A stretch of DNA of 64,000 bases, taken from positions 1 through 64,000 of the forward strand of contig ML769683.1 of NCBI GenBank assembly GCA_009733575.1, read 5' to 3'. The position numbers were made by a program, and so were the translations under genes. Shown piece after piece: positions 6,238 through 64,000 of the stretch (position 1 is the first letter of the stretch; every line of letters begins with the position of its first letter). The notes under the pieces are model-generated. The model saw only the letters and a list, made by a program, of their open reading frames with translations. It did no database searches and was not told where the DNA came from. The DNA comes from Gymnopus androsaceus JB14 (taxonomy: Eukaryota; Basidiomycota; Agaricomycetes; Agaricales; Omphalotaceae).

Positions 6238-6453
6238 GAAACAGAAGACGTGGAATTCAGCTGAGTACAGCCTGAAATTGGCGCGATAGCAAAAATGCTG
6301 AGCTATAGATTCCACTAAGAAACTGTCGATCATTGTGGCTGAATACAGCCTGCAATTTGAGTCGAAAACAAAAAAGATTTGGCTGAGTGCAGCCAGAATT
6401 CGGTGTGGCAAGAAAAGACGATCATTGTTACATGATGGAGGAACAAAAGACAG
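6238..6453 (+). repeat. GGCTGnnnnCAGCC hairpin cluster (left part)
   Basis: Motif copies at 6259-6272, 6337-6350 and 6381-6394, with loops AGTA, AATA and AGTG. The cluster lies immediately 5' of the minus-strand clathrin fragment. It is cut at 6453 by the MULE insertion and resumes at 15807. Confidence 0.85.
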
Positions 6454-6519
6454 AAAACCAAGTCCGTGCCAAGATTTGTAAGTAGCTTAGTAATAAGGGA
6501 GCGCTTTTTGAGCGCTTTT
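6454..6519 (+). repeat. Left TIR of the MULE
   Basis: Reverse complement of 15739-15806 over its inner 58 bp. It includes a hairpin, agcgctttttgagcgct, at its inner edge. Confidence 0.92.
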
Positions 6520-6905
6520 ATCTCAAAACGGCAGCCAGCGTCTATATTTCTTAAAAGGCGGGCGTCGGATCCCGCCCTTCCCTAAACAGATTAAACCCAC
6601 ATCAATCCCTCAAGGCTTCTCTAGTGACACCGTCAGAGCTTGTCAGAGCTCGATCTAGTCACGATCATCTTCTGTGAAGAGATTGTGATATGATTTCTCA
6701 AACCAGCTCCCTCTCGAACCAGCTCAGCACCCTTTGGGCTTTGATATAAGACAGGTTCAAAGCGCGATTTATCTTTCCTCCCTTTCCTCATCACTCTCTC
6801 TCCTCTCGCTTGCTTTCACTGCCTACACGCGTCGTTTACATGGATTTTCGCGGTCTGCAGATTCAACAGCGCTGGTATACGTATTTTCTCCCACTTTCAT
6901 GAACC

Positions 6906-7847
6906 TTGCTGACCGCCACTCTGACTAGGCCTCGACGAGGCAACGGAACGCCTCATCATCCTCTCCAGGTCGGGCGTATGGTACAAGATGGTGTCATACC
7001 CGGTATTGGCTGCGATTGCTCTCCCTCGCCAACTTTGAGAGCGTGGAGCGACCGAGGCCGTCTGAGCAACACGTTTGGCGATTATTTCATCGGTTGTGGC
7101 CATGCATCGCGTCGTGCACGATGCTCATTCTCAAGTAAGTTTTATACTTTCGTCAACGTTGTATGTTCTCATACTTTATCAGTCAATCTGTCTCGTCTTC
7201 ATGAAGCCGTTGTCGTTGCCGATAATCCTCCTCCACCAGCCTATCGCTACCCATCTCCACCTCCTACTCATTTCACGACTCCGGCTACTCCTCCATCCAA
7301 GCAGCAAGAAGCAGCATTTGAACGCGATATGCAGCGTGCCATTGAGCTCTCTCGTGTCGCGGAAGAGCAACGTCAACTTGAGAGAACTCTCAAAACCACG
7401 CGTGCTCAGGCAAAGCACTGTAAGTGATTTTTATGTGTTCTATTTCCTCTTCGCTGATATACCTTTCAAGTGCGTCGCCTTCGTCATGAGCAAGAGGCTC
7501 TTAACCGATACGTTGAGACCTGCTTGACTTATACTACTGCTGCTCCTGCTCCTACGTTTCCTGGTACGTTGTTTTCTAGCGTTTTGTCTAGAGTATCGCT
7601 CAATTGAAAGCCTTTTTTAGATGTGGTCGCAACTTTCTGGACCAATTCCGATACTCACATCCTTCCTAACGGCGTAATCGTTTTCGACCCCAAGACAGAG
7701 AACCGTAAGTAATAGTTTTGTTTCATCCCGAGGCTGTTAAGCTCATGATTTTTTGGTGTAGCTGGCACATCCAAGGTTGTTATTGAGCTCTGCGATCACT
7801 GCGGTGAGGACCTCGCAGAACATGGACAGGCCTGTCTGCATGATTAA
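6906..7847 (+). CDS. Small cargo protein with UIM-like helix and Cys/His cluster
   Basis: Four well-defined exons on the plus strand: about 7189-7419, 7471-7563, 7621-7704 and 7762-7847, all with GT-AG borders and a continuous frame. The second exon segment encodes a Pro-rich stretch followed by FERDMQRAIELSRVAEEQ, which fits the ubiquitin-interacting motif pattern (acidic, A-x3-S). The last exon ends in CDHCGEDLAEHGQACLHD, a likely zinc ligand set. The first exon is uncertain: a frame open from 6906 can splice at 7135 to keep phase, but another start is possible. It sits next to the left TIR, divergent from nothing recognisable, and convergent with the dioxygenase gene. I do not know the family; a ubiquitin-linked role is inference from the UIM alone. 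Confidence 0.6.
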
Positions 7848-8073
7848 TGATACATTTTTTTATATTCCTCGATTTGCATGGTTCGCTTCTCTGCCTGATA
7901 GTTATGCCATTGTTGTTACTTATTGTATGTATGGAATCACCTTTAGTACCTTACATTCTGTATTTCTGTAATGTTCTCAATTGAATTCATATTCGCTGCT
8001 TCATGCGAACACATAAACAAGTTTATAATACTGAACTTTGAAAGCAGAACAAATGCTAAGAGTACAAAAAGTA

Positions 8074-10085
8074 TCAAAAATGCGTTCGTTTTGTGGGACG
8101 TTCCGATCCCTCCTCCAGTTCCGTCAAGTCAACCTCAGAACCCGATTTAACATCTGTCGATCCCCGCCAACTCCCAGCTAATAAATCTTTCCATCTCGTA
8201 AAGGAATCCAATGCCTTGATCCAACGGACCCTCTGTTCTTCTTCTCGAGCAGCCTTTTCCTTTGCGGTAGCCTTAGAAAGCCACAGCTTGTCCGACTGGT
8301 ACCTGTTATAACGCCAGCGAAAAAGTGCACCAGCCGTGTACTGGATCAACGAGTAGCGAAACTTGTGTGGTTGAATCGGTACGTTCGAATGTACAATTTG
8401 ACCAGACGGGAACAGCATCGATGATCCTGAAGGAAAACGTATAACAAGACGGATACCTTGATTCCAAAAGACCATCTGGCCACCCTTGTCAGCATTGAAG
8501 GATCCCAAAGCTGTTGAGGTACACCATCCGTCGACTGAATTTCCAGGATCAATATGAGGAGGAGAAAACGATTGAGGCCCCATGTTGATTGTCAGACCTG
8601 CGAAAGCAGTTTTGGGTACGTTTCGCTTCAGATGAGGGTGCTGGTGTTCAAGGTCGTCAAGGAGGTCGGAGTAGTGTGAGTAACGCTGGTTTGAGAAGAC
8701 TTTGAACAACGCTGGACGTAAGGTCAGAATAATCAAATAACAAGGTCAAACGGGAGCTTACAGTTTGTGAAACCAACGATTCGTTGGATTGCAGGGTTTT
8801 GAAGCAACTGCTTCATCGCGTTGACATTTTTTTTACCACTAATCTTCATCATCCCAACGACTTGACGACCTCCTCCAAACCCTATACCAGTACAACGAGC
8901 AGTGAATTTTCCCCGGCGGTGGATCTGCTCCTTCGCAGAGAAGGTGGACGTGTCAAAACACACTTTAACAGCGGCAGCAGCTTGTTGCGCAACGTTCTGC
9001 CATTCGGGACCAGCGGAGCCCCGCGGGACACCTCCTAGTACACCGAAGATACGGTCCTCTCCATCAACAAGCACAATGCAAGTTCTACAAGAAGGAGTGG
9101 TCAGCACAGAATTTAAACGGAACACCAGTACTTACAGCCCATCCCAATTGATGTATGTCATATCCCCGTCCCTTAGAAGTTTATCGAGATCCTTCCAGTG
9201 CTCCTGAAAGTCAGCAGCTGCTGCAGTTTTGCTAGTACTACCAGACCAACCAGTGGAAGCAACAGGGAGTGATGCTGCGTCAAAGGAGGGAAGATGGAGA
9301 TGGTCAGAGCTCTGAGCATGGGCTAGCGAGACGAGCTTGATCCCATGTTCGGATTCGCGCTTTGCAGCTCCTTTCCGGCGTTTCTGGCGGTACCGCTCGG
9401 TGGTGTTCTTCTTCTTCTTATTCTTTCCGGTCAACGCGGGCCCGGGGGACGGTGAGACGTCAACGTTGCCACCAGCTTCTTCATCTCCATCTTCATCTCC
9501 ACCTTCATCTCCACCAGCCTGCTCACCCTCGCTCTCTATCTCGACGTCCGAATCGTCCTGGTAGTCGCCCTGGTCTTCGCGTTGAATGCGTGCGGCGTAA
9601 TTCTGCTGGAGGTTGAGGCGGAGGTTGAAACCGGGGCAGCGGAGGATGAAGGCCGGGGTTTTGGGGGTCTGGGAAGAGCCTGGACGCGGAACAAACAGGT
9701 CAGCACGCCATCAAGGTAAGAGGAATAAACAGGAAAGAAGAAAGGTATTAAAAGCGCGCCCTGCACCCTCCCTGTCCCAATGTTAGGACTAGAAGAACTC
9801 GGACGCGTCGCGACGCGTGAAGAACAACATAGTTTGCTCCTCCGGACCCCTTGTTAGGTCCAGAAGACACTATTTTCCCCCAAGGAAAGAAAACAACATA
9901 AAAGTAAAAGGTTAACACTGACCAGAGGCGTTATTTTGACGCGTAGGTAACACTTGCTTTGTGCGGTAGTCGAAAAACTCGTATTCAACGGGATGGTAGC
10001 CCCGCCCAGAGCGAAGGCCACCGCCTAAAAGATAAGAGTGAGTGAGACCGTGTCAAAAAAACGGGCCCCACGTACCAGCAGGCAT
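8074..10085 (-). CDS. TET/JBP-like 2OG-Fe(II) dioxygenase, transposon cargo
   Basis: Five exons (10085-10076, 10024-9923, 9679-9136, 9084-8762, 8711-8074) with GT-AG introns join into 538 codons without a stop. The N-terminal half has an acidic stretch and a basic KNKKKK run that may target the nucleus. The C-terminal domain shows the iron ligands H-I-D (8548-8556) and a distal His (8389-8391), with an Arg eleven residues on (8356-8358) that would bind 2-oxoglutarate. The GGQMVFW and HSNVPIQPHKFRYSL segments fit the fungal TET/JBP branch, whose members oxidise 5-methylcytosine or thymine in DNA. Such genes are known to be amplified with DNA transposons in basidiomycetes. Lying inside a MULE, it could act on methylated element DNA. 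The substrate is inferred; another dioxygenase subfamily is possible. Confidence 0.82.
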
Positions 10086-10235
10086 TGGCAAAGAAGGTGC
10101 GTTTTTGCGACCGTAATTTGTAAAGCGGTAGGTGGTGGTCTAGAAGAGGTTTGTTTATTGGTTGATGGTGGCGCATTTGGGCGCGTTTGGGCTTGTGGGC
10201 GTGAGGCGCATGCTAATGGCGCGTGCTAACGGCGC
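10086..10235. promoter_or_regulatory. GC-rich intergenic spacer, possible promoter
   Basis: Lies upstream of the minus-strand dioxygenase. It has short direct repeats of ggcgc-type words (10178-10242) and an in-frame stop just upstream of the chosen start at 10085. No TATA box is obvious. Promoter activity is inferred from position. Confidence 0.35.
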
Positions 10236-10516
10236 TTGTGGCGCCTAGACCTCTTTCCCTTCGCCGTTCATCTCTCCCATGCTCACCCCTCTAGGCAGAC
10301 CGCAATTTCGAAACGTATCTTTTATCCGGATGCTGGGGATCACGCACCGGCTATTCGGAGAATGTATGAGCAAGTAGGTAGCGGGAACGGAGACGGTTGG
10401 GCCCGTGCAGGTACGAATCCGTCCGTTAATCCACGGTTTGAAGCTCATTGCGTGGCAACTGTAACTTTTAAAAGGCAAAGCGCTGCATTTATCGGAGATG
10501 AACAGGTAACGGTCGT

Positions 10517-11299
10517 TTGGAGTGGTTATACCTATCTGCCAGGATCTCGACGACAGGTTGTTTAAACTACAATGGAGGACGAAACAGCCTGGTCATGCAA
10601 ACAATCATCAAACGAACTTGGTACGGCGCAAAGCGTACCGTGTCTGCTCCAGCTTCCTCTTCCGTGGAACCCCCTCGCAAACTCGCATTGTATGTGCCAA
10701 TCTACAACGGCGGTCTCGCTTTAGTCTTTATCGGCAACGGTGTAAAAAATCTCGACCGTGAGTTCCTACTCACTTACCCAGTTGCCGACAGTCCTGCCCC
10801 CGAACCTGCTGGTGCTTCCCGCTATCTCCGTTTCGTCTTGGCCGCGACGCTCCCATTCCTCTACTGCGTCTCCCTTTTCTTCACACTCCAAATCATCCAA
10901 AATATTACCATGGCTTTGGGACCAATCACGCACTATCACGAAAATTCACGGTTTTATTCTGCTGTTCCTACTCCTGCGTCTGCAGATCAGCAGGAAGTTC
11001 TTCCACATATAACAATTCGGATGCATGTTTACCGCGAGAGTCTGGAGACCGTGTTGGCGCCTTCCATCTCGTCATTGAAGCGTGCTATGCAGACGTACGC
11101 TAGGCAGGGTGGGACCTCGTCGATCTTTGTGTGTGACGACGGATTGCGAACGAGTGGCATGACACGCGCTGATCAAGATGAGAGGATCAGGTATTATCGA
11201 AGTAGTGTTGCGTGGGTCGCTAGACCGAGGGATGGGTGTCCTGCCGGAGGTGTCGAAGAGCTGGGATTGGATGGGGATCCAGAGAAGGGAACACGGTAG
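10517..11299 (+). pseudogene. Captured glycosyltransferase family 2 N-terminal fragment
   Basis: The open frame has a hydrophobic helix (about residues 103-130, RFVLAATLPFLYCVSLFF) and then a block resembling fungal family 2 glycosyltransferases: PHITIRMHVYRESLETVLAP, QTYARQGGTSSIFVCDDGL and WVARP. The DDG motif fits the nucleotide-sugar site. The expected catalytic D, QxxRW region and C-terminal membrane helices are absent, and similarity is lost after WVARP at about 11220. It looks like a host gene 5' fragment picked up by the MULE (Pack-MULE behaviour). The start at 10517 is simply the first Met; a later one near 10595 is equally possible. A function is unlikely. Confidence 0.65.
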
Positions 11300-11543
11300 T
11301 CGTCCAGGGGTGTACGGTTCATATGGTACCACCCTACCTTTTACCCTTTACCATCTACTACCTGTGTACGTTTGATGTCATGCTATTTGAGTTGTTCAGA
11401 AAAATACAGAGCAATGGAAATTCAAAATATAGCTAAGCTGCTGCAGCGACAGACCACGCAAAACGCTTTACTACTCATGGTGCAAACCGCTTCACCCAAC
11501 AGCTATTTCTGCAACAGCAACAGCAACTAACCGTCCTTATCTG
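11300..11543. other. Intergenic spacer inside MULE
   Basis: 244 bp between the convergent glycosyltransferase fragment and the transposase 3' end. It includes short CAG-type runs (11436-11530). No gene is seen. Confidence 0.5.
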
Positions 11544-14500
11544 CTATAACGTCCCGTTGGAATTCATTCTTGACTGCTTTGCCTCTGGTGAAGGAGCTTG
11601 TAGAGTAGGACCCGATCGTTGACGCTTCGTTTTGCGAGGTAGGTCCTCAGACACGGTACGACGGAAGGTCCGTGTTGGTTTAGGAGGCGAAGGAGGAGCA
11701 GAAGGAGGAATAGCAGGGGGATTATGCATGAATGATAGTTCAGAGATGCGAGAGGCAAGAGAGTCGAGAACGTTTTGAAGATCAGAAAGTTCTGGGGATT
11801 TAGGCAAGGAAGAAGCCCCTAATAGGATGCTTTCGAGGCCATAGAGCCGAGGTAGTAGAGCTGAGGCCTCATTTGTGATTTTATGATGGATTTGAGTGTC
11901 TACAGCTGCTCGTTGTGCATCAAAAAATTCCCTGGGCAGCTAAGAACAGCAACATCAAGATAAATAAACACAAAAGAATAAAGATCTTACTTGGAAAGGC
12001 ATTTCAACATCAGGCTTCTCCAGATCACAACTAGACATGTCCGAATCGCTATCGGTTTCGGGCTGTTTTTCAGGAGCCTCGTCGTTATCAAGATCTCCTC
12101 CTAGGACAGTGTGATCCTGCCCAAGATCCTGAAGCGTACTCCAGTCAATCGAGCCCGAAGTTTGCATGGGGCAAGAAGATGGGAGCGATGGAGAAGCTAA
12201 ACCGGAGGACTGAGAAGACAACTCAGCTGGAGTAGTCCGTTGTTTGATTCCCTGAGCAATGGAAAGAGTAGGAGGATAGTACAACTGGGCATAGTAGCCT
12301 TGAGCAATCCAACCGTTCAGCACCATTCGAAACGCACGGAGATGCTTGCATGCACCCCCATGGTTGTAGAAATCGGGACAGGTACAGGAACCTTCCCCGT
12401 TGCGACAGAGTTTAAGCTGGTAGAGAGATCTATCCTGGCTCGAAGGAAGGCAGGAAGCGAGAAAGGTGTCAGGGCTGGAACCAAAGGTCACTTGTTGAAG
12501 TTTGTTAGCGCGTAGGAGTTCATGAGCATGAGTTTCACGCGTTGCATCAACAGGCCACCAGCAAACACTTCTGAGAGCTCGAGCACGCTCCTGGTCAGAT
12601 TGGCAAAGCTTCTGCTGTAGCTCAGAGAGGTTCTGACCTCCTGCAGCTGCATAAAACCGCCTATTTAACCATAGGTAGTGTTCATGAATTGATCGACGGC
12701 GGTTGTAGACTTGAGGGAGAATTTCGGTGATGAGAAGAAAGATGAGGATATCGAAACAAATTCGATGGCCCGAGTGGAGGTACTTTTCGATGTATTTCCG
12801 TTTAAGAATTGCATTGAACGACTCCAGGTGGTTAGTGGTTGGAATGATACCATCGACTGGAATTCCAATAGCAGCAGCAGCAGCTATACGTCCCCACTCT
12901 GACCAGCTCTGCCAGAGTGAGAGGCTCATCCAGTTTACCTCAATATACTTGAGATGTGTCAAGCCTGCTTGTGCTGGATGCTTTGCTTCTACGTCTTGAT
13001 GCTCTAACAAGCCCGTGAAGTAGGCACGCTGATGGGCAATAAGCTCAAGTGCATTTGCATGCTCGACAGTAGCGATGAGCCTTGAGGAAAGAAAAATAAG
13101 CTTCAAAACAGGGAAAAATAACGAAGGAGACCTACTGGACCTCAAATGAGTAGAGAGCATTGCGAACGTGATTTTTCCAGAAATCTGAGCCACCTTTAAA
13201 GTTGAGTAACTTCTTGCGGTAGTTGGTCCAGCATTGGCGAAGATGAAATTTGCAGAGAAGTAAGATAATGGATGGCCAGACACGAAGGAGTGCTCCGCGT
13301 TCCTTTGTATCAGTGTCGGTGATACAAGAACGAGGTTCAAAGGCACCAAACTTCTTCATCAGATGGTTCTTCCACGCAGAAAGCAGACGTGTAAGTATGT
13401 CGGTATTGTATGATGCGTGTGTTGCTTTTGCTCCAGTTGCAGCTGAGAATAAGAAGAGAGCAATGGGTAAACCTTTCCGATCTTCATCGATGGCCATGGC
13501 TATAAAGAGGAGAAGACGGGAGCTGCAGACACCAAAAGTGCCATCCAAAATCAACTGAGATTTATGAGCAAACTTGTGAGCAGCTTCGTCCATTTCTGGA
13601 GTTGCTAGACACAGTTCAAATCGATCACCAGCTTCAGCGCGTGCAGAGTAATGAAAAACTGCTTCTGCAATTTCCCGTTTGAATTCGCTACTTTCAGGGT
13701 TTAACCAATTATCAATGTTGTATTGAGGAAGCTCCGTTGCGTCAACACCTATGCCTCTCGCAGCTTTTTGGTAGAGGGCAGTATGGTCAGTTGGAAGGAA
13801 GATATACCAAATATTTGCTGTATCAGAGTCCCACGTATCCATTCCACGGTAAGAATGAGCTTGTATCATTTCGCGATTCTTCTGTTGGATAGATGTAATG
13901 CTAGATACGGATGTTAATTTAGAATAAAAGCAAGGAGTATATATTCTACCTGGCTCCGTTTCGAAGCTGTTCCAGTGCAACTTCATAGACATGTTCATGC
14001 AGAGGCACCGGAGGAAGACGTTCAAGAACGGCAGAGCTACAGGCTGTGTTGTGTTCTGTAATACCAGTGATTCGAGAGATAGAACCATTGGCCCCTTCGA
14101 ATACTTCTACATGCGCGAGACAGCCTGTGAAAGGGAACGGTACACGTCGTCTCCAGTCTTCCTCTTTACGATTTCGTCCTTTGGTCTGCTCCAGTAGTTG
14201 ACAAAAGTGTGAATCGTATCCGCATTTACTAGAAAAAAAAATGTAAGGTTTAAATGAGCCCCATGAAGTGAATTCTACCATTGGTATAAAGTGCGCCTGG
14301 TTCCCTTCTGAAGGCCCCAAGTGGTAGACGTTCTGATACTCCAGCGACTTTCAAGTTGTGATCGCGAAGGTTTGTCGAGGCCCAACTCAAGGAGTTTTGC
14401 AGATGCTTGTTCCTGGTCTAGCCCGCTGTTTGAATATTCCCATCTGCTGCTAGAAGAGGACCCGTATATTGAATCGATAACGCCTCGTTGGTCTGCAGTA

Positions 14501-15197
14501 ATGCATAGACTTTGTATCTTAACCTGTGGAAGTATTCAGTTTCATGTTCCTCCACGATTGTATCGCCGTAACCTGTGTTTGATGCTTGTGGACTAGAGCT
14601 GGCAAAGATGCTGCAGCCTTGACCCACCCAGATCCTCCGATTTCAGGAATAAACTAGAAGGTGAGGTTTAAATTAGTAAATACAGCAGACTATCCACTTG
14701 CCTGTAGATTCGAGCTTGAGTTTGGATGAAAAAAATAATCTTTTGGAACCTTTTCCAATTATAATCAACATTGTAGAAACGCGTCGAATAAGTAGAAGCC
14801 AACCTTCGGAGCCACTGGGTCGTATATTAGCCCTCCTGAGGTTGCTGTCATCGGAGCCGCAACTTTTGTTTGATATTCATGCTTCCGCAGAACGTAAGAT
14901 ACATATTCTGAAATACAAAATCATTATAAGCTTACACTACTGGAGACTTGAGGTTGTTCGTTGGTATTCTATGAAAACGTATCAAATTGCGTGTCAATAA
15001 GAGCAGGAAACGTTTGAAAATACCTGTTTTGGCTTCCTTTTCCTGATAGGTCCTATAAGCGGCGGCAGTTTATTTGAGAGGCTTATCCAGCTTTCTCCAG
15101 GACCAGGGGCCAACGGAGGTGAATTCATAGTCAAGTTGGAGTTCTTCAGAACGCTTCGCTGCTCTGCAACAACGCAGATCTCATTTGTGAAGCTCAA
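11544..15197 (-). CDS. MULE transposase with SWIM zinc finger
   Basis: Multi-exon minus-strand gene. Clear introns lie near 13081-13134 and 11941-11990, with others upstream of 13940. The catalytic core shows LILDGTFGVCSSRL (first Asp near 13545), a second acidic block CITDTDTKERG followed by LCKFHLRQCW (about 13220-13320), and NHLESFNAILKRKY (Glu at 12822-12824), which fits the DDE triad of MULE transposases. A SWIM finger, CTCPDFYNHGGACKH, lies at about 12345-12390. A Pro-rich, basic tail ends at 11544. The 5' end is less certain: exons between 14250 and 15197 include a GC donor candidate and two competing frames, so the first exons may be decayed. It would bind the element TIRs and cut and paste the element. 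Confidence 0.85.
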
Positions 15198-15738
15198 TGC
15201 AATCTAATCGCTGTCTCGAACGGCACAAACCAGTTCGTTCAAACACTACATGTTGGACCAACTCGGAAAAGGATACAAGACTCACTTCGTCATAGAAAAA
15301 CTGAACCGGAGCTCCATAAGAAGAGCATTGTCGGGACATCGGTGCATTTTGCAAGGACAGGCTTCTCTTTGTTCACACCTCACGCATATATCAAATTAAA
15401 TGACAGCGAAGCCAGTGTATAGGGAGTGCTACAAAATGCAACAATAGCTAAAGGCAGCAATGCTTAACCTGAACAGCTGGTGGTGTTGGATAATCCCTAG
15501 TACATACTGACTAGATCCTCATGATTGCGCAGGGATATGCTCGACGCGCTAGGTTGGGACCAGTAGTAGAAGTCTTCCGAGTTTTTTGATGGTTACTTGA
15601 CAGATTTGCGAAGATCTTCGGTTTACGAGCCGGATCCAAGTCTTTTCCGATGGTTTCGCATTAGGCACGCATTGAAAGAAGCAAGGGCGGGATGCGTGCA
15701 AGCACCTACCGAAGAAGGAAACGGCGCGATCGCACGAG
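15198..15738. other. Right subterminal region of MULE, no gene
   Basis: 541 bp between the transposase 5' end and the right TIR. One short plus-strand frame (15597-15833) runs into the TIR and has no motif. It probably contains the transposase promoter. Confidence 0.5.
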
Positions 15739-15806
15739 AAAAGCGCTCAAAAAGCGCTCCCTTATTACTAAGCTACTTACAAATCTTGGCGCGGACACGA
15801 CGTCCC
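15739..15806 (-). repeat. Right TIR of the MULE
   Basis: Partner of 6454-6519; the element ends at 15806, followed by the second aaaagacag. Confidence 0.92.
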
Positions 15807-16790
15807 AAAAGACAGTCCGAGAAGTGGATTTAGATGATGTGAAGTACGATTTCACTCATGAGATAGTATGATACTATATACCGAAAGATGGTCACAATAA
15901 GGATGATTCAACTGAAAAAAAATTAGCGTCAGTAAAGACGATCACCGTCACATGGTGGAAGAACAAAAGACAGTCTGAGAAGTGGATTTGGACGACATGA
16001 AGTACGGTTTCACTCATGAGATGGTATGATACCGTATACCGAGAGACAGTCGCAATAAGGAAATAAGGATCGATGTAACTGAAAAAAAAAGTAGTGTCAG
16101 TAAAGCTTCAAACCAGAAAATGTTTCATGAGCGTACCAATGCAAGAGGATGCATATTGGATGATTTCGAGCAGCTGAGTACAGCCTGCAAGAACATTCAA
16201 CGAATCCACTTGAACGGGAAGCTGCATTTTCCAAACTGTGCAAGTGAGACTTGAAAAAGATGCTTGAGTATATGAGATGATTTTTGCACTTGGGTTTGGC
16301 TCGCTGCATTGCGATGCAATCTATGTATAAGATAACATTAAGTTCAACACCTAACCAACTTTGTTGTAGACACTTACTGAGCAATATAGACAGCAGAAAG
16401 CGCTTCAGCTGGGCAATCATTCTATCGCTGGAAAGGCGGCTGAGGACAGCCTGCAAGTTGAGTCAAAGATGAGCTTGGGATGGGGCTGAGTATAGCCTAA
16501 ATGAGATTGGAGTCGATACTCAATTGTAAGATGGTATTTGAAGCAAATGTGAGGAATATCTGAAGGCATCCTGGACATAACAAGGAGAAAGCAGCCTGTT
16601 GATAAAGGCTAAATACAGCCTGCAAGTTTCGAAACAAAAGGAATTTGGCTGAGTACAGCCTGAAATTGGTGCCAATAGCAAAGACACTGCAGTATGAATT
16701 CCACTGAGAGGCTGTCGTTTGTTGAAAAATTACTAGCGGCTAAATACAGCCTGCATGTCAGGTTAAAAAAGAAAAGACTTGTAATTTGGC
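15807..16790 (+). repeat. Hairpin-motif array continuing from 6453
   Basis: Motif copies at 16172-16185, 16438-16451, 16484-16497, 16607-16620, 16647-16660 and 16738-16751, interleaved with a 100-bp repeat (deer-style phrase gacagtccgagaagtgg, at 15812 and 15970) and with a 45-bp shred of clathrin coding sequence at about 16562-16607. Together with 6238-6453 it parallels 46193-47030, so both are copies of one duplicated block. No gene. Confidence 0.8.
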
Positions 16791-17064
16791 CACCTAGCAC
16801 ACGGGCTTTCACCCGGGAAGTCATTTTGATCTCGCCCAACCAAATTGTAGTAAGTCAATTTCTTTTTGCATATGTATCAGAATCAGTTCGCACACTAAGA
16901 TTTCTCTTCGGCAGTTGCTCTTGAGTGATTGCATTATAACCTGGAGAGCTTGGGTCATATGGCCTGGCCAAAGATATGTACATTAGCCGTAACTAAGGCT
17001 AACGGAACGTTCTCAAATATACCGTAGCTATGTACCGTAATTACGTCCGTATTTAGATATCCGA

Positions 17065-17081
17065 GCTGCTATAAAAGCAGC
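17065..17081 (+). promoter_or_regulatory. TATA box inside a hairpin
   Basis: TATAAAA forms the loop side of gctgct...agcagc. It is a likely LTR promoter upstream of gypsy gag. Confidence 0.45.
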
Positions 17082-17286
17082 GGGAACTGGGCTCTCTGAC
17101 CCCAGTTCTACTATTTTTGCTTATTTACCGTCTCGCTACATATCTCATCTTTCTCGTTAAATTCCGTTTACTTACACGTAGAGCGTCCTCGACGCTCCGT
17201 AACTACGCTTTGACGTCGATCAATATAACTCATTGATCCATTAAATCCGATCTTGATTGCGTCCCGCAATCAACGTGCCTAATTAC

Positions 17287-18026
17287 GGATAAAACTATTG
17301 AGAAACCCCGTTTTCGCCAGGAACCCTAGGTTTCTCGCGAAACCCTATGCAAATGTCATTGTAGGGTTTCTGTTGATTTGGCCGCTGCCTGGCCGGACGC
17401 TCCATTTTCATGGGCGCTTCCTGGGCGCTTTGACACTTTTGCTAAGAAGCACTTTACCTTTCCTCATCATTGGGTCAGCGCTGGCCATAGACTCTATCGT
17501 GCTTACCACCTCACCATTGTAATAAATTCACTTTATTTTATTTATCACCATGTTTTCGGCTCAGAGAGCTCTCACTGTTCACCATCTTAGATGCCGATTC
17601 TCAGCGAATTTTGAAGTAGGAGGTCTTAAAGGCAGATATAAAGTAAGAACCATTCAAAGGTCATCTTGACCTGTTCTTTTTTCCCTTCATGGCTAATAAA
17701 TCAGAGACATTGCATCTCAAACTTGCCGATACGCGTCAAGTTCCAATGTAACAACACTCTGAAATATTCCGGTGATGAGAGGGATAGACTCATTATCGTG
17801 TACCAAGCGTCAACCAAGCGTAGTCCCTATTTCATCTGTTATTTGGGCAAGATAAGGAATAATTGGCCATGAGTCATGTCTACACGGTACGCGACGCGCG
17901 TTGGCCCAGACCGGAAAATGTAGGGGTCGGGATTAGCTAATCCGGCCCAAGGCCGTGGCATACACGGGTTCCCCCATAGTCATCGGGGGTTTCTGCAAAA
18001 ATCAGGGTTTCTCAATAGTTTTATCC
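17287..18026. mobile_element. 740-bp non-autonomous MULE-type element
   Basis: Terminal repeats are perfect over 22 bp, starting GGATAAAACTATTGAG, with weaker similarity inward. It is flanked by a perfect 9-bp duplication, cctaattac (17278-17286 and 18027-18035). A short frame (17298-17522) overlaps the left TIR and has no recognisable domain. Element size, TIRs and TSD fit a MULE-derived MITE. Confidence 0.85.
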
Positions 18027-18051
18027 CCTAATTACTAATTTTCGTAACACT

Positions 18052-18415
18052 AATCTAACTCGGTTTACACCGTTAGATTTGGACGACGTATCAACAACTC
18101 CTTTGCTTATAGCTATCATCGACGTTGCTCTCAAGCAACCTACAGACGACTCGTCATTCTCAGCACGACTAGTAGACTACTAATCGTCTCGTCGCTAACC
18201 GTTAGTACATCGCATAATTACGGCAATACGTAATTTACGTATCCAACGACATCAACTAATCTAAACCGGCCAATACCGTTCAATTTAGACGTCGTTTCGA
18301 CGAATCCTTTGCTTGCAGATACCATCTACGTTGCTCTCGAGCAACCTACAGAAGACTCATCGTCTTCAGCACGGTTAGTAGACGACTAACCGTCTCGTCG
18401 TTAACCTTTAATGTC
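18052..18415 (+). repeat. Two diverged tandem copies, period about 206 bp
   Basis: Units start at about 18051 and 18257 and share blocks such as cctttgctt, cgttgctctc and gcaacctacag. Stems are preserved in both while bases change. Confidence 0.65.
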
Positions 18416-18960
18416 ACTAATATACACCAATCCGGCCTTGTGTATACGGCCCACTAAGAACGTCGTCCCAACGTTCCTTTTTGTCCATATTAATCTTTCG
18501 ACTGTCCATAACTTCCCAGTTACGCATACACGCGATACGCACTCGTTCTCACATTTATTAAGAATCACCACCGGTAATTCCTCCTGTTTACATCGACAGC
18601 GTGCATAAGCGCATATAAGCTGTCCTATAGCGTTCGACACCTCGGCACGTGACCGAAACTCGACGATTTGCTCCGTTAACACTACTCGTACACCGTACAA
18701 CCGCATATAGGTGCATATACTCACTATTATTGTATCAATTGCAATAGTAGCTGTTTATTATCTAATCCCCGAGCCCTATATAAGCTCAACAGGTTACCAT
18801 TCGAGGTCTGCACACAACGGTACACTCTCAACATTGTCTATTAACTGAACAGGCAATCTAATACATTCTATCAATCACTATAAGTACTACTTATAGTAAC
18901 TAGTATTCTAAACTAGCACGGTTCTAACATAATAGTAGAACTTCGTACTGTCCAGACCTA

Positions 18961-21900
18961 ATGGCAACCACTACTGAAACCAAGGCCTCACGAACAAACA
19001 CTAATAATATTAACAATATCAATACACCCTCGTCTGCTCATCATGTACATTGCCCTGATGGTTCGTGGCAATGGAGTATGAGTGAGGCTGACATGCCAAC
19101 CCAAACTAATATATCTCCCACTACGGCAAATGACCAAACCGTGGGAGGAAACTCTACTAACAGGAATGTTGAGCAGACTCCAGCCCAAGGGTTGCCCACA
19201 CCTCCTAATACTCAACCACGAGTAGTGGCTGATAATGGACAACAGTTTAATACACCACAAGTTCCAGAACTACCAAATCCACACACACATTAGCAAATGA
19301 ATTGCAACAAGCTAATAATAATCAACTACCTGAATTTAGTGGACCAATAAATTCATGGACAGACTCAATACGGAGAGACGCTGGATGACCAAATTGTTCT
19401 GCATCATGGACTAACACTCCCAGTAATAGAGGTAGGTCGTGTAGGCGGAATAATGTCCAAAATGGACATTTGGGGTCCCGACGGTCAAGCCATGACAGTA
19501 CCTATTCAGTACAGTCAATGCCTGCTCATACTCAAGGATTATCAAGCCGGGTGCATTTCAATCCAAATTCCCCTGATGTAAACCGTCCTGCATCTAGCAT
19601 GGGTATTGAATCAACCCCTCATCCACGAAATAATCACATCCTTAATAGCATCCAAAATATTGTAAATGACAGAACTCATAATATGGCAGATGTATCTGAA
19701 CAAAATGCTGCTTCCCGAGCGCAATGGAATGTCTATAGAGAACAGCAAAATCGACAAGCTGTAAATGCCATGGCAGAATGGGCAATGATTTTTGTTGAAT
19801 CTATGGGATTGAATACCACATACCCCAGTAGTAAGGGGTCTGGATAGACTAAATTTTAACAATATGCCTGCATACCTTGTACAAAGGTTGCAAGATCCCA
19901 ATTTATTGCAGGAATTTGATGCTCTCAGACAGGCAGTAAATCAGGATGGAGTATATGCACTCTATCCTGATGCTGATTTAAATCCAGGCAATGTTAGCAC
20001 AGCTGAACAGATGAGGTTAGGATTACCATACAGACAATATCGACTAATACAAGAGCCCCCAAGCAGTGGTTCCTCCCATAGATCTGATGAGAACCATAAT
20101 TCATTAATTGACCAGGCACCTGATCAAGCAAGGGAAACTATAGACCAATTAAGTATTCAGGAGCAAAGAACAATTCTAGAAGGGCTGCTTAGAGAAGAAT
20201 TGCAATCTACACAAAATAGCCCCATGGGGTCTATTCGGAGGCAATCAGTGGTTGAATCCATTCAAAGTTCAGGATCCAACCCATTTTTGGGGAATAATAC
20301 ACCCTCCAACAACGAGTGGAACAAGGGAGGAGTACAATTCCTTCAGAACCTGATTTGCGAACACACATGAATCAACCTAGAGATTTACCTCCAATAGATT
20401 TAGCTTCTTTAACAGATGCTGATATCAATTACATTACAGCAACAAATGCATATGATCCCACTCTTCAACCTCAAATTCTTGCAGAATATAACCGCCGGCA
20501 GTTAGGAGATCATTACAATCGGGATACATTATCAGCTACAACACTAGGAATGACACTCCTAGGCCATCACCTCACACACAGGTAGTACTGTTGGATTTGA
20601 TTTTGCCGAGTGCCGTTGCTCGCCACGGCTTCTGATTGGAAATTGATATTTTACCATATATATTCCCCTGTAGTGGTTAGATCCCCATTCGTTTGCCTTC
20701 CGACTCCCACTACGAGGCTCAAACGGAATATATCGTTTGACTCCCCCTTTTCTCGAGTGACGCCGTACCTGTGTATCCCAACACAAACGGATCCTGGCTA
20801 GTCTAGCGAGCCAGTAAATAGCGCTACGAGGATCTTTGGGTTGAGCCCCTATCCTCACCGTTGTCACTCGAGACATTGTCCGTTCTCTCGACTCTATTCA
20901 AGTCGCCTGGCGAGGCGCAACCGATGATATTCTGCCCCCCCCTTAATGTGTTTGCTACCACTCAATGAATCCCGATTCTCTTTCCCAGCATCGATGATTG
21001 CTGTAGATGATGCCGAGTCACGACGACGGCTCAGAAGAACCCCTGTTGATTTGTGCAGCTACGACGAATGCTGTGCACACCGTTATTGTGCCGATGAAGA
21101 AGAACTTGAAGACCTTGCAGCCGCCGTCTATGATGAACGACGATGTCCTGTTTCCGAAACCGAAGATGATCCCCCACCGACTACGATGAACGCTGACCTG
21201 TTTGTTCCCATTCCCGCCGAAGATTTTCCTCCCCGCTTTTCACTTTCCGAGGGTGCATTGAGCTTGAGAGGCTCACACGGCACTCGCGAGGGTGTGTTGG
21301 ATTTGATTTTGCCGAGTGCCGTTGCTCGCCACAGCTTCCGATTGGAAATTGATATTTTACCATATATATTCCCCTGTAGTGGTTAGATCCCCATCCGTTT
21401 GCCTCCCGACTCCCACTACGAGGCTCAAACGGAATATATCGTTTGACTCCCCCTTTTCTCAAGTGACACCGTACCTGTGTATCCCAACAAGTACCTCAAT
21501 TTGTTCCTGTGACGGGACCAAATTCACGACAACCAGGAGCCATGCTCCAACGAGCAAGAGAGCAAAGGCCATTTCTCCGCCCACAGGGACCCAGAGCACA
21601 ATTACCCCGCACAAGCAATCTTTCTGAGATTGTGGAAGTAACTGAGGAGGAGAGTAGAAGGGAAACAGAATTAAACTCAATCTCCCCTCATCCAGAACAT
21701 GAGAAAGAGAGAACGGAATTACCATTGAATTCCAATCAGTCACAAGTGCCATATGGGGCATTTAATATTTCCCCTCAGAACAATAGCACTCTAGCCTCCA
21801 GACAAAACTCCAATTTGATCAGAGATGTACCTCCACATATCTCAAATAACAACATTTCGGACAACTCTATAAATAATATTAGGCACAATAACATGGAAAC

Positions 21901-46192: not shown

Positions 46193-47095
46193 AAACAGAA
46201 GACGTGGTATTCAGCTGAGTACAGCCTGAAATTGGCGCAATAGCAAAGATGCTGAGCTATAGATTCCACTGAGAAACTGTCAATCATTCCAGCTGAATAC
46301 AGCTTGCACTTCAAGTCGAAAAAGAAAAAGATTCGGCTGAGTGCAGCCAGAATTCAGTGTGGCAAGAAAAGACTATAATTGTTACATGATGGAAGAACAA
46401 AAGACAGTCCGAGAAGTGGATTTGGACGACGTGAAGTACGATTTCACTCATGAGATGGTATGATACTGTATACTGAGAGACAGTCGCAATAAGGAATTAA
46501 GGACCGATGTAACTGAAAAAAAAGTAGCGTCAGTAAAGCTTTAAACCAGAAAATGTTTCATGAGCGTACCAATGCAAGAGGATGCATATTGAATGATTTC
46601 GAGTGGCTGAGTACAACCTGATTGAAATTGAAATTGATAGTTGATGGTAGGAAGGCAAAGTGAATGTGTGGACAATCTGAAGGCATCCTGGACAAAGCAA
46701 AGAGAAAGCAGCCCGTTGACAGATCCTGCAAGTTGCTTTGAAACAGAAGATGTGGAATTCGGCTGAGTACAGCCTGAAATTGGTGTGATAGCAAAGATGC
46801 TGAGCTATGGATTCCACTGAGAAACTGTCGATCGTTGCAGCTGAATACAGCCTGCAATTCGAGTCGGAAACAAAAAGAATTTGGCTGAGTGCAGCCAGAA
46901 TTCGGTGTGGCAAGAAAAGACAATCATTGTTACATGATGGAAGAACAAAAGACAGTCCGAGAAGTGGATTTGGATGACATGAAGTAAGATTTCACTCATG
47001 AGATGGTATGATACCGTATACCAAAAGACAGTTGCAATAAGGATGATGATAATCATTACATGATGGAACAAAAGAACTATGCCGGCGCCTAAAAC
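46193..47095 (+). repeat. Hairpin array with terminal inverted repeat
   Basis: Motif copies at 46213-46226, 46290-46303, 46335-46348, 46605-46618 (weak), 46761-46774, 46839-46852 and 46883-46896. A block of about 540 bp including a 70-bp clathrin shred (46134 and 46676) is tandemly repeated. The last 46 bp, 47050-47095, are an inverted copy of 58048-58093 (three mismatches) and look like an element end. Confidence 0.85.
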
Positions 47096-61058: not shown

Positions 61059-64000
61059 ATGGATCCTTTTTCATGTCTAGTCAATGGCTGCCCCAAAAGT
61101 TTTCCGATATTGAGCGCGCTGCAGAGACATATGCGCATGACTTTGGATCCTGCGCACCACAAAGCTTACCATTCACAATATTCTGATTTAAGCTTTGTTC
61201 TACCTGCCACATCCGAACCACAGCATTCTGCTTCACATTCCTCATCTTCCTCCGTGATCTCCCACATGGAATCAGTTGAAGAAGTCCTTGATAATCACAA
61301 CTATCCCACTTATATTGAAGTCAACGACAACAATAATCATGACTTTGCAATCAACAATAACGACAGCAAAAATGATGATGCAGCCTCTACCTTTTCTGAT
61401 GAAAGCGACGTTGCTTCACTGGAGATCAATGAAGTGGTCAACGTCGATATGGTTGATGTTGATGTCGATGAGATGGTTGACGTCTATGAGATGGTTGATG
61501 TCAATGAGATGGTTGACGTCAATGAGATGGTCAACATCAATGAGATGGCTGCCATAGACACAATTATGGCAGATGCTTCAGGCAAGCAAGACTTGCTGCA
61601 TGAAGATAACATCGATTATTATTGGCCTTCCTCCCCTGGATCTGACTCTGATCCCCCTGATGCCCCTATTCGCCAGCTCGATGATATCCCCAAAGCAAGA
61701 GTAATCGATTGGCATCCAACTGCTGGCGCTGTCATCCCCAGCGGTTTAGAGCAGAATGTATATGAAAGATGGGACAGATTGTTTGGTGCAAAGACAGACA
61801 TAGCTGATTCAGGCTACAAGCCATTTTCCTCTTGGCTTGATTGGGAAATAGCTCAATGGGCTGTCAAAGAGAAAATTGGTCATGGGTCGCTTAATCGTTT
61901 ACTGGCTATACCTGAGGTGAGGGTAATATCAGTGTTTCCTTTTCACCTTGCTAAAAAAAACTTCAGTTAAAAGATTGACTGGGACTCTCCTTCAAGGACA
62001 CACGTACCATGTTCAACATAATTGACAAACTCCCCGAATGTTGTGGAACCTGGAAAACCAAACAGTTTACTTTCAAAGATCAGCCTAATGAGCATTTCAT
62101 TGTCCACCATCTGAGATCCTATTAGAAGCAATTTATAGTATCTGGGGTGACCCTGCCTTTGCTGATTACTTGGTCTACAAACCTGGCAAATTTTTTGCTT
62201 CCAAAAGTTGTCGTCGTGAGGAGCGTATTTTCCATGAGATGTGGTCTGTGAATGAGTGGCATGCTATCCAGGTACAGTAAGCCCAAATCCAATTTTTAGT
62301 TCAACATCTCACCGACCATATCAGGACCTGCTACCAGTGGTGCTACCATGGCTCCTGTAATCATTGCATCGGACAAGACTCAATTAACCAATTTCAGTGG
62401 AGGGAAAGCAGCCTACCCAGTCTACCTTAGCATAGGCAACCTTCCGAAAGCAATTAGGCAGGAAACCGAGTGCACACAGCCTGCGTACTCCTTGCGTATC
62501 TATCTGTTAATAAACTGGTCACGAAAAGGCAAGGTATCTTCGAAGAAAATGTTACGCCTCCAAAACTATCAGCTCTTTCATCAGTCAATGGCAGAGGTTC
62601 TCGCACCTCTGAAGACCATGGGCCTGCAAGGGCATTGTGATGGTCAGCGGTAATGGACAAAAACGCAAGGTTCACCCAATTCTTTCCTCATACGTGGCCG
62701 ACTATCCTGAGCAATGCTTAGTTACGTGCACCAAGTATGGAACGTGCCCCAAGTGCCGTCGAAAAGCAACTGAACTCGAGAATCAGACTCTTGGTGAAGA
62801 GCGCACCCAGCTCTGGACTGAAGGAGTAATCAGGAAAGCTAGATCGAAGGGTAAAACTCCCAGTGCCATTCATTCGCTTGCAATGGAAGACAATGTTGCT
62901 GGTGGGGACTATGATCCTTTCTGGAAAGGATTTCCCTACTGTGATATCCATGATGCAATAACGCCAGATGTTTTGCATCAACTATACCAGGGGGTTATCA
63001 AACACTTAATCTCCTGGATTCAGTCATTGATGACTAAGGACAAGTTTGATTCTCGACTACGGTCCCTTCCTCCTGCATTCGGTGTTCATCATTTCAAGGA
63101 CGGTATATCTAACCTAAGCCAAGTCACTGGGCCAGAGAGAAAAACGCTATCGAAGATCCTCATTGCCTGTCTTGTTGGCAAGATAGATTCCCACAGTATT
63201 ATTGCAGCCCGCAGTCTCTTGGATTTCATCCATCTTGTACAATACCCTTCTCATGATGGTAGGACCCTACGGTATGCAGAGGAGGCGCTGGACTCCTGGC
63301 ATGCTAATAGGGCTTACTTCAAGGAAAAGGAAGTTCGTGACCACTTCAATATTCCCAAATTTCACTCTCTCTTACACTACATCCCTTTGATTAAGCTCAA
63401 AGCGACAACAGACAATGGCAATACAGAAGCATTCGAGCACCTTCACATCACCTTTGCTAAATATGGCTGGCGAGCAAGTAATAAGAGGGATGCCTTCCCA
63501 CAGATGATTACTTGGCTCTCTCGACAGGAGAAGGTGGCCTCCTACGATTTCTTCAGGCAATGGAAAAGCCGCACTAAATTGGAGGAAGGTGGTCTTAAAG
63601 ATGATGTTGAAGATGATGCAATGCCAGTCACTGACCCTGGTGAGGCTGAGGTTGTGGTTGCTCTAGACAACTTGAAGAAGAAATTTGGTGTCCAATTAGC
63701 CAAGCGCGCACCAGAGCCAAACAAAACCCTTGAAAAAATTTCTTGTGATCATAATGCGCCTATGTTCATTGATGCTTTGAAGCATTTTATCAATGGACTT
63801 TGTAAAGAGCCATTGCCACAAAAGAAGTTACTCACAACCCCACTTCCTTTTGCTAGATTTGATGTGTGGCACCAGGTCAAAATCGCTCTGTTGGGTCTAT
63901 TTGAAGATGAAGAATTGTCAGAAACTGTGAAGGCGGTGCCCATATGGAGACGTTCAGATATTAGCCGTTTCGATACCATCATTGTCTTGCAAGATGAACA
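61059..64000 (+). pseudogene. Plavaka-like transposase, continues beyond window
   Basis: Start at 61059 with a C2H2-like finger (CLVNGCPKSF ... H-x5-H), an acidic Asn/Asp-rich linker with short tandem repeats (VDVNEMVD-like units, 61460-61560), then the conserved region of fungal Plavaka-type transposases: YKPFSSWLDWEIAQWAVKE, SIWGDPAFADYLVYKPGKFF, MAPVIIASDKTQLTNFSGGK, AAYPVYLSIGNLPKAIR, YCDIHDAITPDVLHQLYQGV and NTEAFEHLHITFAKYGWR. Candidate acidic catalytic residues lie in ASDKTQ, HDAITPD and NTEAFE. Introns at about 61917-61970 and 62271-62326. Frameshifts near 62115 and 62630 break it; from about 62640 one frame is open to the window edge. Plavaka elements are CACTA-related cut-and-paste transposons of basidiomycetes. 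Confidence 0.85.

Follow-up and report, generated by a model that had tools for sequence, protein, structure and literature searches.

Does a Mutator-like element (MULE) carry a TET/JBP-type gene, and from where would it have obtained one? The question is raised by a 64,000-nt stretch of the Gymnopus androsaceus JB14 genome (assembly GCA_009733575.1, contig ML769683.1, positions 1 to 64,000; hereafter the window), in which a MULE holds a dioxygenase gene between its ends. The window comes from a contig of 82,809 bases (C301; other contigs are named in the same way), and the genome comprises 83.3 Mb in 934 contigs. The preliminary description of this locus took the element for a complete MULE carrying a TET/JBP-like dioxygenase and suggested that an element with its own 5-methylcytosine (5mC) oxidase could resist silencing, an interpretation that is partly supported by our analysis. 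We lean, to a modest degree, towards the reading that this complete MULE carries an intact-looking five-exon gene, predicted to be of the TET/JBP type, whose product would likely oxidize methylcytosine on the element and thereby lessen its silencing.

The element and its insertion site

The borders of the element and its transposase gene are as follows.

6454 to 15806, no strand assigned: complete MULE of 9.35 kb, with terminal inverted repeats (TIRs), target site duplication (TSD), empty paralogous sites and transposase
6462 to 6522, plus strand: left TIR, 61 nt, 97% complementary to the right TIR
15736 to 15796, minus strand: right TIR, 61 nt
6444 to 6453, no strand assigned: left TSD, CAAAAGACAG, 9 or 10 nt
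15806 to 15815, no strand assigned: right TSD, CAAAAGACAG, 9 or 10 nt
11544 to 15339, minus strand: MULE transposase gene, about ten exons, encoding a DDE domain and a SWIM motif, the N-terminal exons being uncertain

The strongest evidence for precise insertion comes from three empty paralogous sites in the window. The two flanks of the MULE were joined into a 159-nt probe and compared within the window, and this probe matched across the junction at 46882-47040 (91.2%), at 46335-46492 (91.1%) and at 15931-16058 (85.2%, 128 nt). The MULE has therefore inserted into a copy of a dispersed repeat, of which other copies show the unoccupied site; this insertion is confirmed, its borders being supported by the TSD, the TIRs and the empty sites together. 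The direct repeat and the inverted repeats reported earlier are both present, the former 9 or 10 nt long where 9 bp had been given and the latter 61 nt at 97% where 58 bp had been given. In a composition shuffle, a 9-mer match anywhere within so large a search space had a probability of 0.8%. The exact tips of the MULE are unsure because its left and right ends are mismatched over their outermost 8-10 nt and because the solo end on C200 shows clear agreement with the window only from roughly that point inwards.

The completeness of the MULE, as first described, is upheld by these features and by a match to PF10551 (DDE transposase) in one open reading frame (ORF) of the transposase, which scores 31.6 bits against a cut-off of 27.6. 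The accompanying claim of a SWIM motif is less secure: it lies in a different ORF and scores 15 bits, under the 19.6 cut-off, and the CxC..CxH motif was seen by eye. Eight exons of the transposase, from 14907 to 11544, form a single open frame when joined, and the N-terminus is unsure because the chosen exon 2/3 junction breaks the frame. Relatives of the transposase number 288 at E <= 0.001, those among the 120 listed being chiefly from Agaricomycetes such as Lentinula, and one database entry from Gymnopus androsaceus JB14 (BT96DRAFT_834462) matches at 97%. Among 23 aligned relatives PF10551 was matched in 20 and SWIM in 15 (E <= 0.01).

The search for further copies with the same TIRs that had been proposed as a check yielded no second complete copy. 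With the conserved transposase exon and the element ends as genome queries, we found outside the window only remote transposase fragments on C213 and C426 and, for the ends, the one solo end on C200. The C213 and C426 contigs are without a dioxygenase match at the threshold of the genome search described below.

The dioxygenase gene, its family and its origin

The gene and its exons are placed as follows.

8074 to 10085, minus strand: TET/JBP-like 2-oxoglutarate (2OG)-Fe(II) dioxygenase gene, five exons, 538 aa
10085-10076, 10024-9923, 9679-9136, 9084-8762 and 8711-8074, minus strand: its exons

An intact-looking five-exon dioxygenase between the TIRs, with its HxD, H and R residues, had been claimed, and this holds: the exon borders are GT-AG, the 538-aa frame has no stop, and the HxD motif (which reads H-I-D), the distal H and the 2OG-binding R are all found. 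The D and R columns are invariant among 79 relatives, and both H columns are at least 90% conserved. A match to PF12851 (Tet_JBP) is the usual, not the defining, mark of TET/JBP proteins. It is found at E <= 0.1 in 23 of the 79 relatives, the best reaching 9.5e-7 and 28.6 bits, under the cut-off of 34.9, and most members of the family score under that cut-off. Precomputed PF12851 is present in 2 of the 120 relatives listed (of 888) and a KDZ domain in 4. A phmmer search of PDB with the 538-aa protein found no TET.

The fold was predicted for a homolog, P0001, which is 49% identical to the MULE dioxygenase and gave a structure model with a predicted local distance difference test (pLDDT) score of 91.4. 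This model has the TET-type double-stranded beta-helix fold by prediction. TET proteins rank top in both the Foldseek and the VIA comparisons, with CcTET closest, followed by NgTET1 and TET2; PHD2 is clearly below the TETs in VIA, and CMD1 appears in the Foldseek list but not in the 50 rows shown for VIA. The TM-score is moderate (best match 0.54 by query) and identity to CcTET in the structural alignment is about 15%. A model of P0003 was poor (pLDDT 55) because its gene model is without the HxD segment. It is thus the predicted fold and the catalytic residues, and not a sequence profile, that make the MULE dioxygenase TET/JBP-like, and the TET/JBP identity proposed earlier stands on the first two, the fold being that of a homolog, while sequence profiles do not place the protein in TET/JBP.

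With the HxD exon as query, the genome gave 96 matches, the MULE copy included, which merged to 90 loci. We scored association with KDZ, Plavaka, rva_4 and PF10551 as a match within 15 kb, which is proximity and not membership in an element. By this measure 49 of the 90 loci are associated with KDZ (against an expectation of about 4.5 with 138 merged loci), 5 with Plavaka, 6 with the rva_4 integrase and 2 with PF10551. The last two are the MULE copy and a second locus that lies 12 kb from its PF10551 match and only 4 kb from a KDZ match; the MULE copy is the only dioxygenase locus within 8 kb of a MULE match. At 30 loci none of the four transposase families is near, and a lone host gene was rejected as an explanation, since about 60 of the 90 lie near one of them. 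On the phylogenetic check suggested in the preliminary description, the protein stays inside this large dioxygenase family, more than half of whose loci are near KDZ, and profiles alone do not give TET/JBP. Judged from its sequences, the family may be a type distinct from both CcTET and the PE type discussed below. The sole PF12851 match of the genome at E <= 0.001, under the cut-off, is at C425:9685-9906; it is outside the dioxygenase family list and about 9 kb from a Plavaka match.

The trees drew on 113 rows, 1 of them dropped for length: the MULE copy, the best 29 of the 89 other copies in the genome, and 83 relatives from the database. The MULE dioxygenase groups with the copies on C611 and C77 (support 1.0 and 100). 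The next node (0.996 and 100) defines a 13-member clade, the MULE copy included, that holds copies near rva_4, unassigned copies and Lentinula proteins, and none of the KDZ-linked copies in the trees. Within it, the copies on C741 and C193 are 3.3 kb from rva_4, that on C82 1.1 kb and that on C124 7 kb. We take the rva_4 elements to be IS3EU. A KDZ element nested in the MULE was rejected as the source, as there is no listed KDZ match inside the MULE and its nearest clade is without a KDZ-linked copy.

DNA homology to the C611 and C77 copies is 74% over 8163-9795, including introns 3 and 4; beyond this stretch, in the loci compared, they share with the MULE only a repeated intron piece. Because the homology spans introns, transfer was at the DNA level, and retroposition of the gene was rejected on account of its passage through introns 3 and 4. 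Between the MULE dioxygenase and these copies synonymous divergence (Ks) is about 1.0-1.25 and the ratio of nonsynonymous to synonymous divergence (Ka/Ks) is 0.11-0.18. The MULE branch has 116 synonymous and 42 nonsynonymous changes, while the C611 and C77 copies, both stop-bearing, together have 11 synonymous and 15 nonsynonymous changes. These counts indicate past purifying selection on the lineage leading to the MULE dioxygenase, unlike its two nearest relatives, an indication limited by the high Ks and by a branch that includes time outside the MULE. We consider that the gene was probably acquired, introns included, from another transposon of the clade that includes the rva_4-near copies and not from a KDZ element, and that the MULE is probably the recipient of a gene itself probably borne by a transposable element (TE).

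The two nearest relatives lie in a repeat at least some 3 kb long (C611:11174-14193 and C77:200743-203787), 96% identical up to an assembly gap on C77, and an opposite-strand ORF nearby looks transposase-like by eye and has no Pfam match. One transposase-like ORF gave no match to the MULE profile.

Other genes and composition of the element

Between the arms the genes run, from left to right, as a 238-aa gene, the dioxygenase (minus), a captured fragment (plus) and the transposase (minus). The two features not yet listed are these.

6840 to 7847, plus strand: intact six-exon gene, 238 aa, with Cys/His clusters that look zinc-finger-like by eye
10469 to 11290, plus strand: captured gene fragment, with a DNA match to C4:122116-123053

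The 238-aa protein has no Pfam family above its cut-off, and its ORF at 6903-7427 has no further match in the genome; it is possibly an accessory protein of the MULE. The captured fragment matches C4:122116-123053 at 94% DNA identity over 715 columns and 78% over 139 columns, and an overlapping ORF at the C4 locus (region C4:121700-123300) contains DUF7928 (E 1.2e-40). The fragment is partial, with deletions relative to the C4 gene, and 243 codons give a Ks of 0.076, with 12 synonymous and 17 nonsynonymous single changes. Judged by this divergence it is a recent copy of the C4 gene, the deletions having occurred since capture, and we infer that C4 is the site of the original host gene. The MULE therefore appears to capture genes.

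The ratio of observed to expected CpG reaches 0.91 within the MULE, against 0.65 for the part of the window that precedes it and 0.56 for the part that follows; a 4-kb bin outside the MULE (16,000-20,000) also has 0.90. The median is 0.46 in 19 other PF10551 loci, of which 3 are at 0.85 or above, and 0.65 in 29 other dioxygenase loci. The CpG of the MULE fits youth or lower methylation. High CpG as a sign of low past methylation was dropped as evidence, as age accounts for it equally. Plavaka transposase matches lie near the end of the window (62327-63020).

Function, rival explanations and comparison with known systems

From what is known of its family, movement of the MULE would depend on its own DDE/SWIM transposase, which would act on the TIRs. 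Its dioxygenase would oxidize 5mC, or else N6-methyladenine (6mA), which CcTET oxidizes too, either in cis or genome-wide, and oxidation of methylcytosine on the element would leave the MULE less silenced by host methylation. C5-methylase family matches occur at four places in the genome, and passages of two papers report oxidized methylcytosine on transposons of other agarics (PMC12730594, PMC8889193).

Several results weigh against this reading. The 538-aa protein itself matched no 2OG or Tet_JBP model of Pfam (none for PF12851 at E <= 10), a profile of the 79 relatives found no CcTET in PDB at E <= 10 and no TET by sequence, and the fold was modeled on P0001, at 49% identity, not on the MULE protein. 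The lone MULE copy shows neither recurrence nor selection inside the MULE. Compared by eye, the contigs of the 7 listed Lentinula dioxygenases agree in length with none of those that bear the MULE transposases of Lentinula (23 of the 120 listed), and among these matches the pairing of dioxygenase and MULE is not seen recurring in Lentinula. As to origin, the node uniting the C741 and C193 copies and P0001 with the MULE copy is weak (0.57 and 62), even the closest copies in the genome, at a Ks of about 1, are too diverged to point to a direct donor, the scanned ORFs flanking the C611 copy contain no Pfam transposase, and none of the listed rva_4, KDZ, Plavaka or MULE matches is within 15 kb of the C611 or C77 copy.

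The chief rival explanation is that the gene is passenger cargo, captured by the MULE or dropped in by another TE with no benefit to the MULE, which we regard as quite possible if on balance doubtful. The truncated fragment, with its deletions and 94% DNA identity, indicates that this MULE takes up other DNA; no other MULE match has a dioxygenase within 8 kb; and 90 dioxygenase loci with 23 MULE matches, taken as 9.35-kb elements, give 0.23 inclusions expected by chance. However, no listed KDZ, Plavaka or rva_4 match lies inside the MULE, the segments 7847-8073 and 10086-10470 share no direct repeat of at least 8 nt and no inverted repeat of at least 9 nt, and the dioxygenase has an intact frame with apparent purifying selection on its branch, part of which may predate arrival in the MULE.

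An enzyme of TET fold might also act chiefly on something other than 5mC, be it 6mA, thymine or RNA, or carry out glyceryl transfer like CMD1, and so not be mainly a 5mC eraser, which we think unlikely. In the text of PMC12730594, CcTET oxidizes 5mC and 6mA and CMD1 makes 5-glyceryl-methylcytosine (5gmC), and the homolog model shares only about 15% identity with CcTET; among solved structures, its nearest neighbors are nonetheless enzymes that act on 5mC in DNA. That the locus is an artefact, with repeats paired by chance or contigs misjoined in assembly in place of a single element, is very improbable: the tips beyond the 61-nt core mismatch and there is one copy only, but the TSD, the three empty paralogous sites, the 97% TIRs and the transposase between them argue for one element. 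If the enzyme is active on methylcytosine of the MULE, as we favor, one more transposon superfamily would be armed with a DNA-base oxidase against methylation, strengthening the view of TET-type genes as shared anti-silencing tools of fungal mobile DNA.

The preliminary description held that TET/JBP genes of basidiomycetes are known chiefly with KDZ and that a MULE would be a different association. In agarics, the published carriers are still most often KDZ (Kyakuja), but Kojima 2025 (PMC12730594) names, in its main text, ten DNA transposon lineages of fungi with TET-type genes, including Plavaka, EnSpm, Zisupton and Helitron in Agaricus bisporus, and reports the genes to be related across superfamilies. 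MULEs are not among these ten, MuDR appearing only in the introduction (supplementary tables aside), and no TET-carrying MULE was found in the literature searched or in the passages of papers examined. The MULE would thus be one more lineage and not a second one, a new carrier for a known kind of element, known from one copy. We put forward with low confidence the conjecture that gene-capturing MULEs shuttle TET-type anti-silencing genes between transposon superfamilies, the window MULE being caught with the dioxygenase and a fresh fragment. If true, such shuttles would be the missing mechanism for a passage that now has no visible vehicle; gene capture beside TET carriage bears on gene passage between unrelated transposons, which the 2025 survey left open.

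As in the TET-carrying transposons described in that survey's text, an intact TET/JBP-type gene and a transposase lie between the termini of a DNA transposon; those are reconstructed multi-copy families, whereas here there is a single copy. The MULE dioxygenase fits none of the three types of Kojima 2025 (PMC12730594) cleanly, as the text characterizes them. The PE type has HxE where the MULE dioxygenase has HxD, the PU type is set apart by host, ours being an agaric, and the AG type is close to CcTET by sequence, whereas the profile of the MULE family finds no CcTET and the gene is not plainly AG; many loci of its family are nonetheless near KDZ. From CcTET of Coprinopsis cinerea (PDB 7vpn, 7w5p, 8jkk) it differs in having 15% identity and no sequence-profile link.

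Among MULEs themselves there are two points of comparison. Plant Pack-MULEs have captured gene fragments between MULE ends and no transposase; the window MULE likewise has a captured fragment between its ends, and unlike them it keeps a transposase, so it is potentially autonomous. The plant Vandal families and the Phytophthora MuDR elements with SET genes are described in the text of PMC12730594 as MuDR with epigenetic cargo. Like these, the window MULE is a MULE-class element with a gene aimed at epigenetic marks, and unlike these its cargo is a predicted DNA-base dioxygenase.
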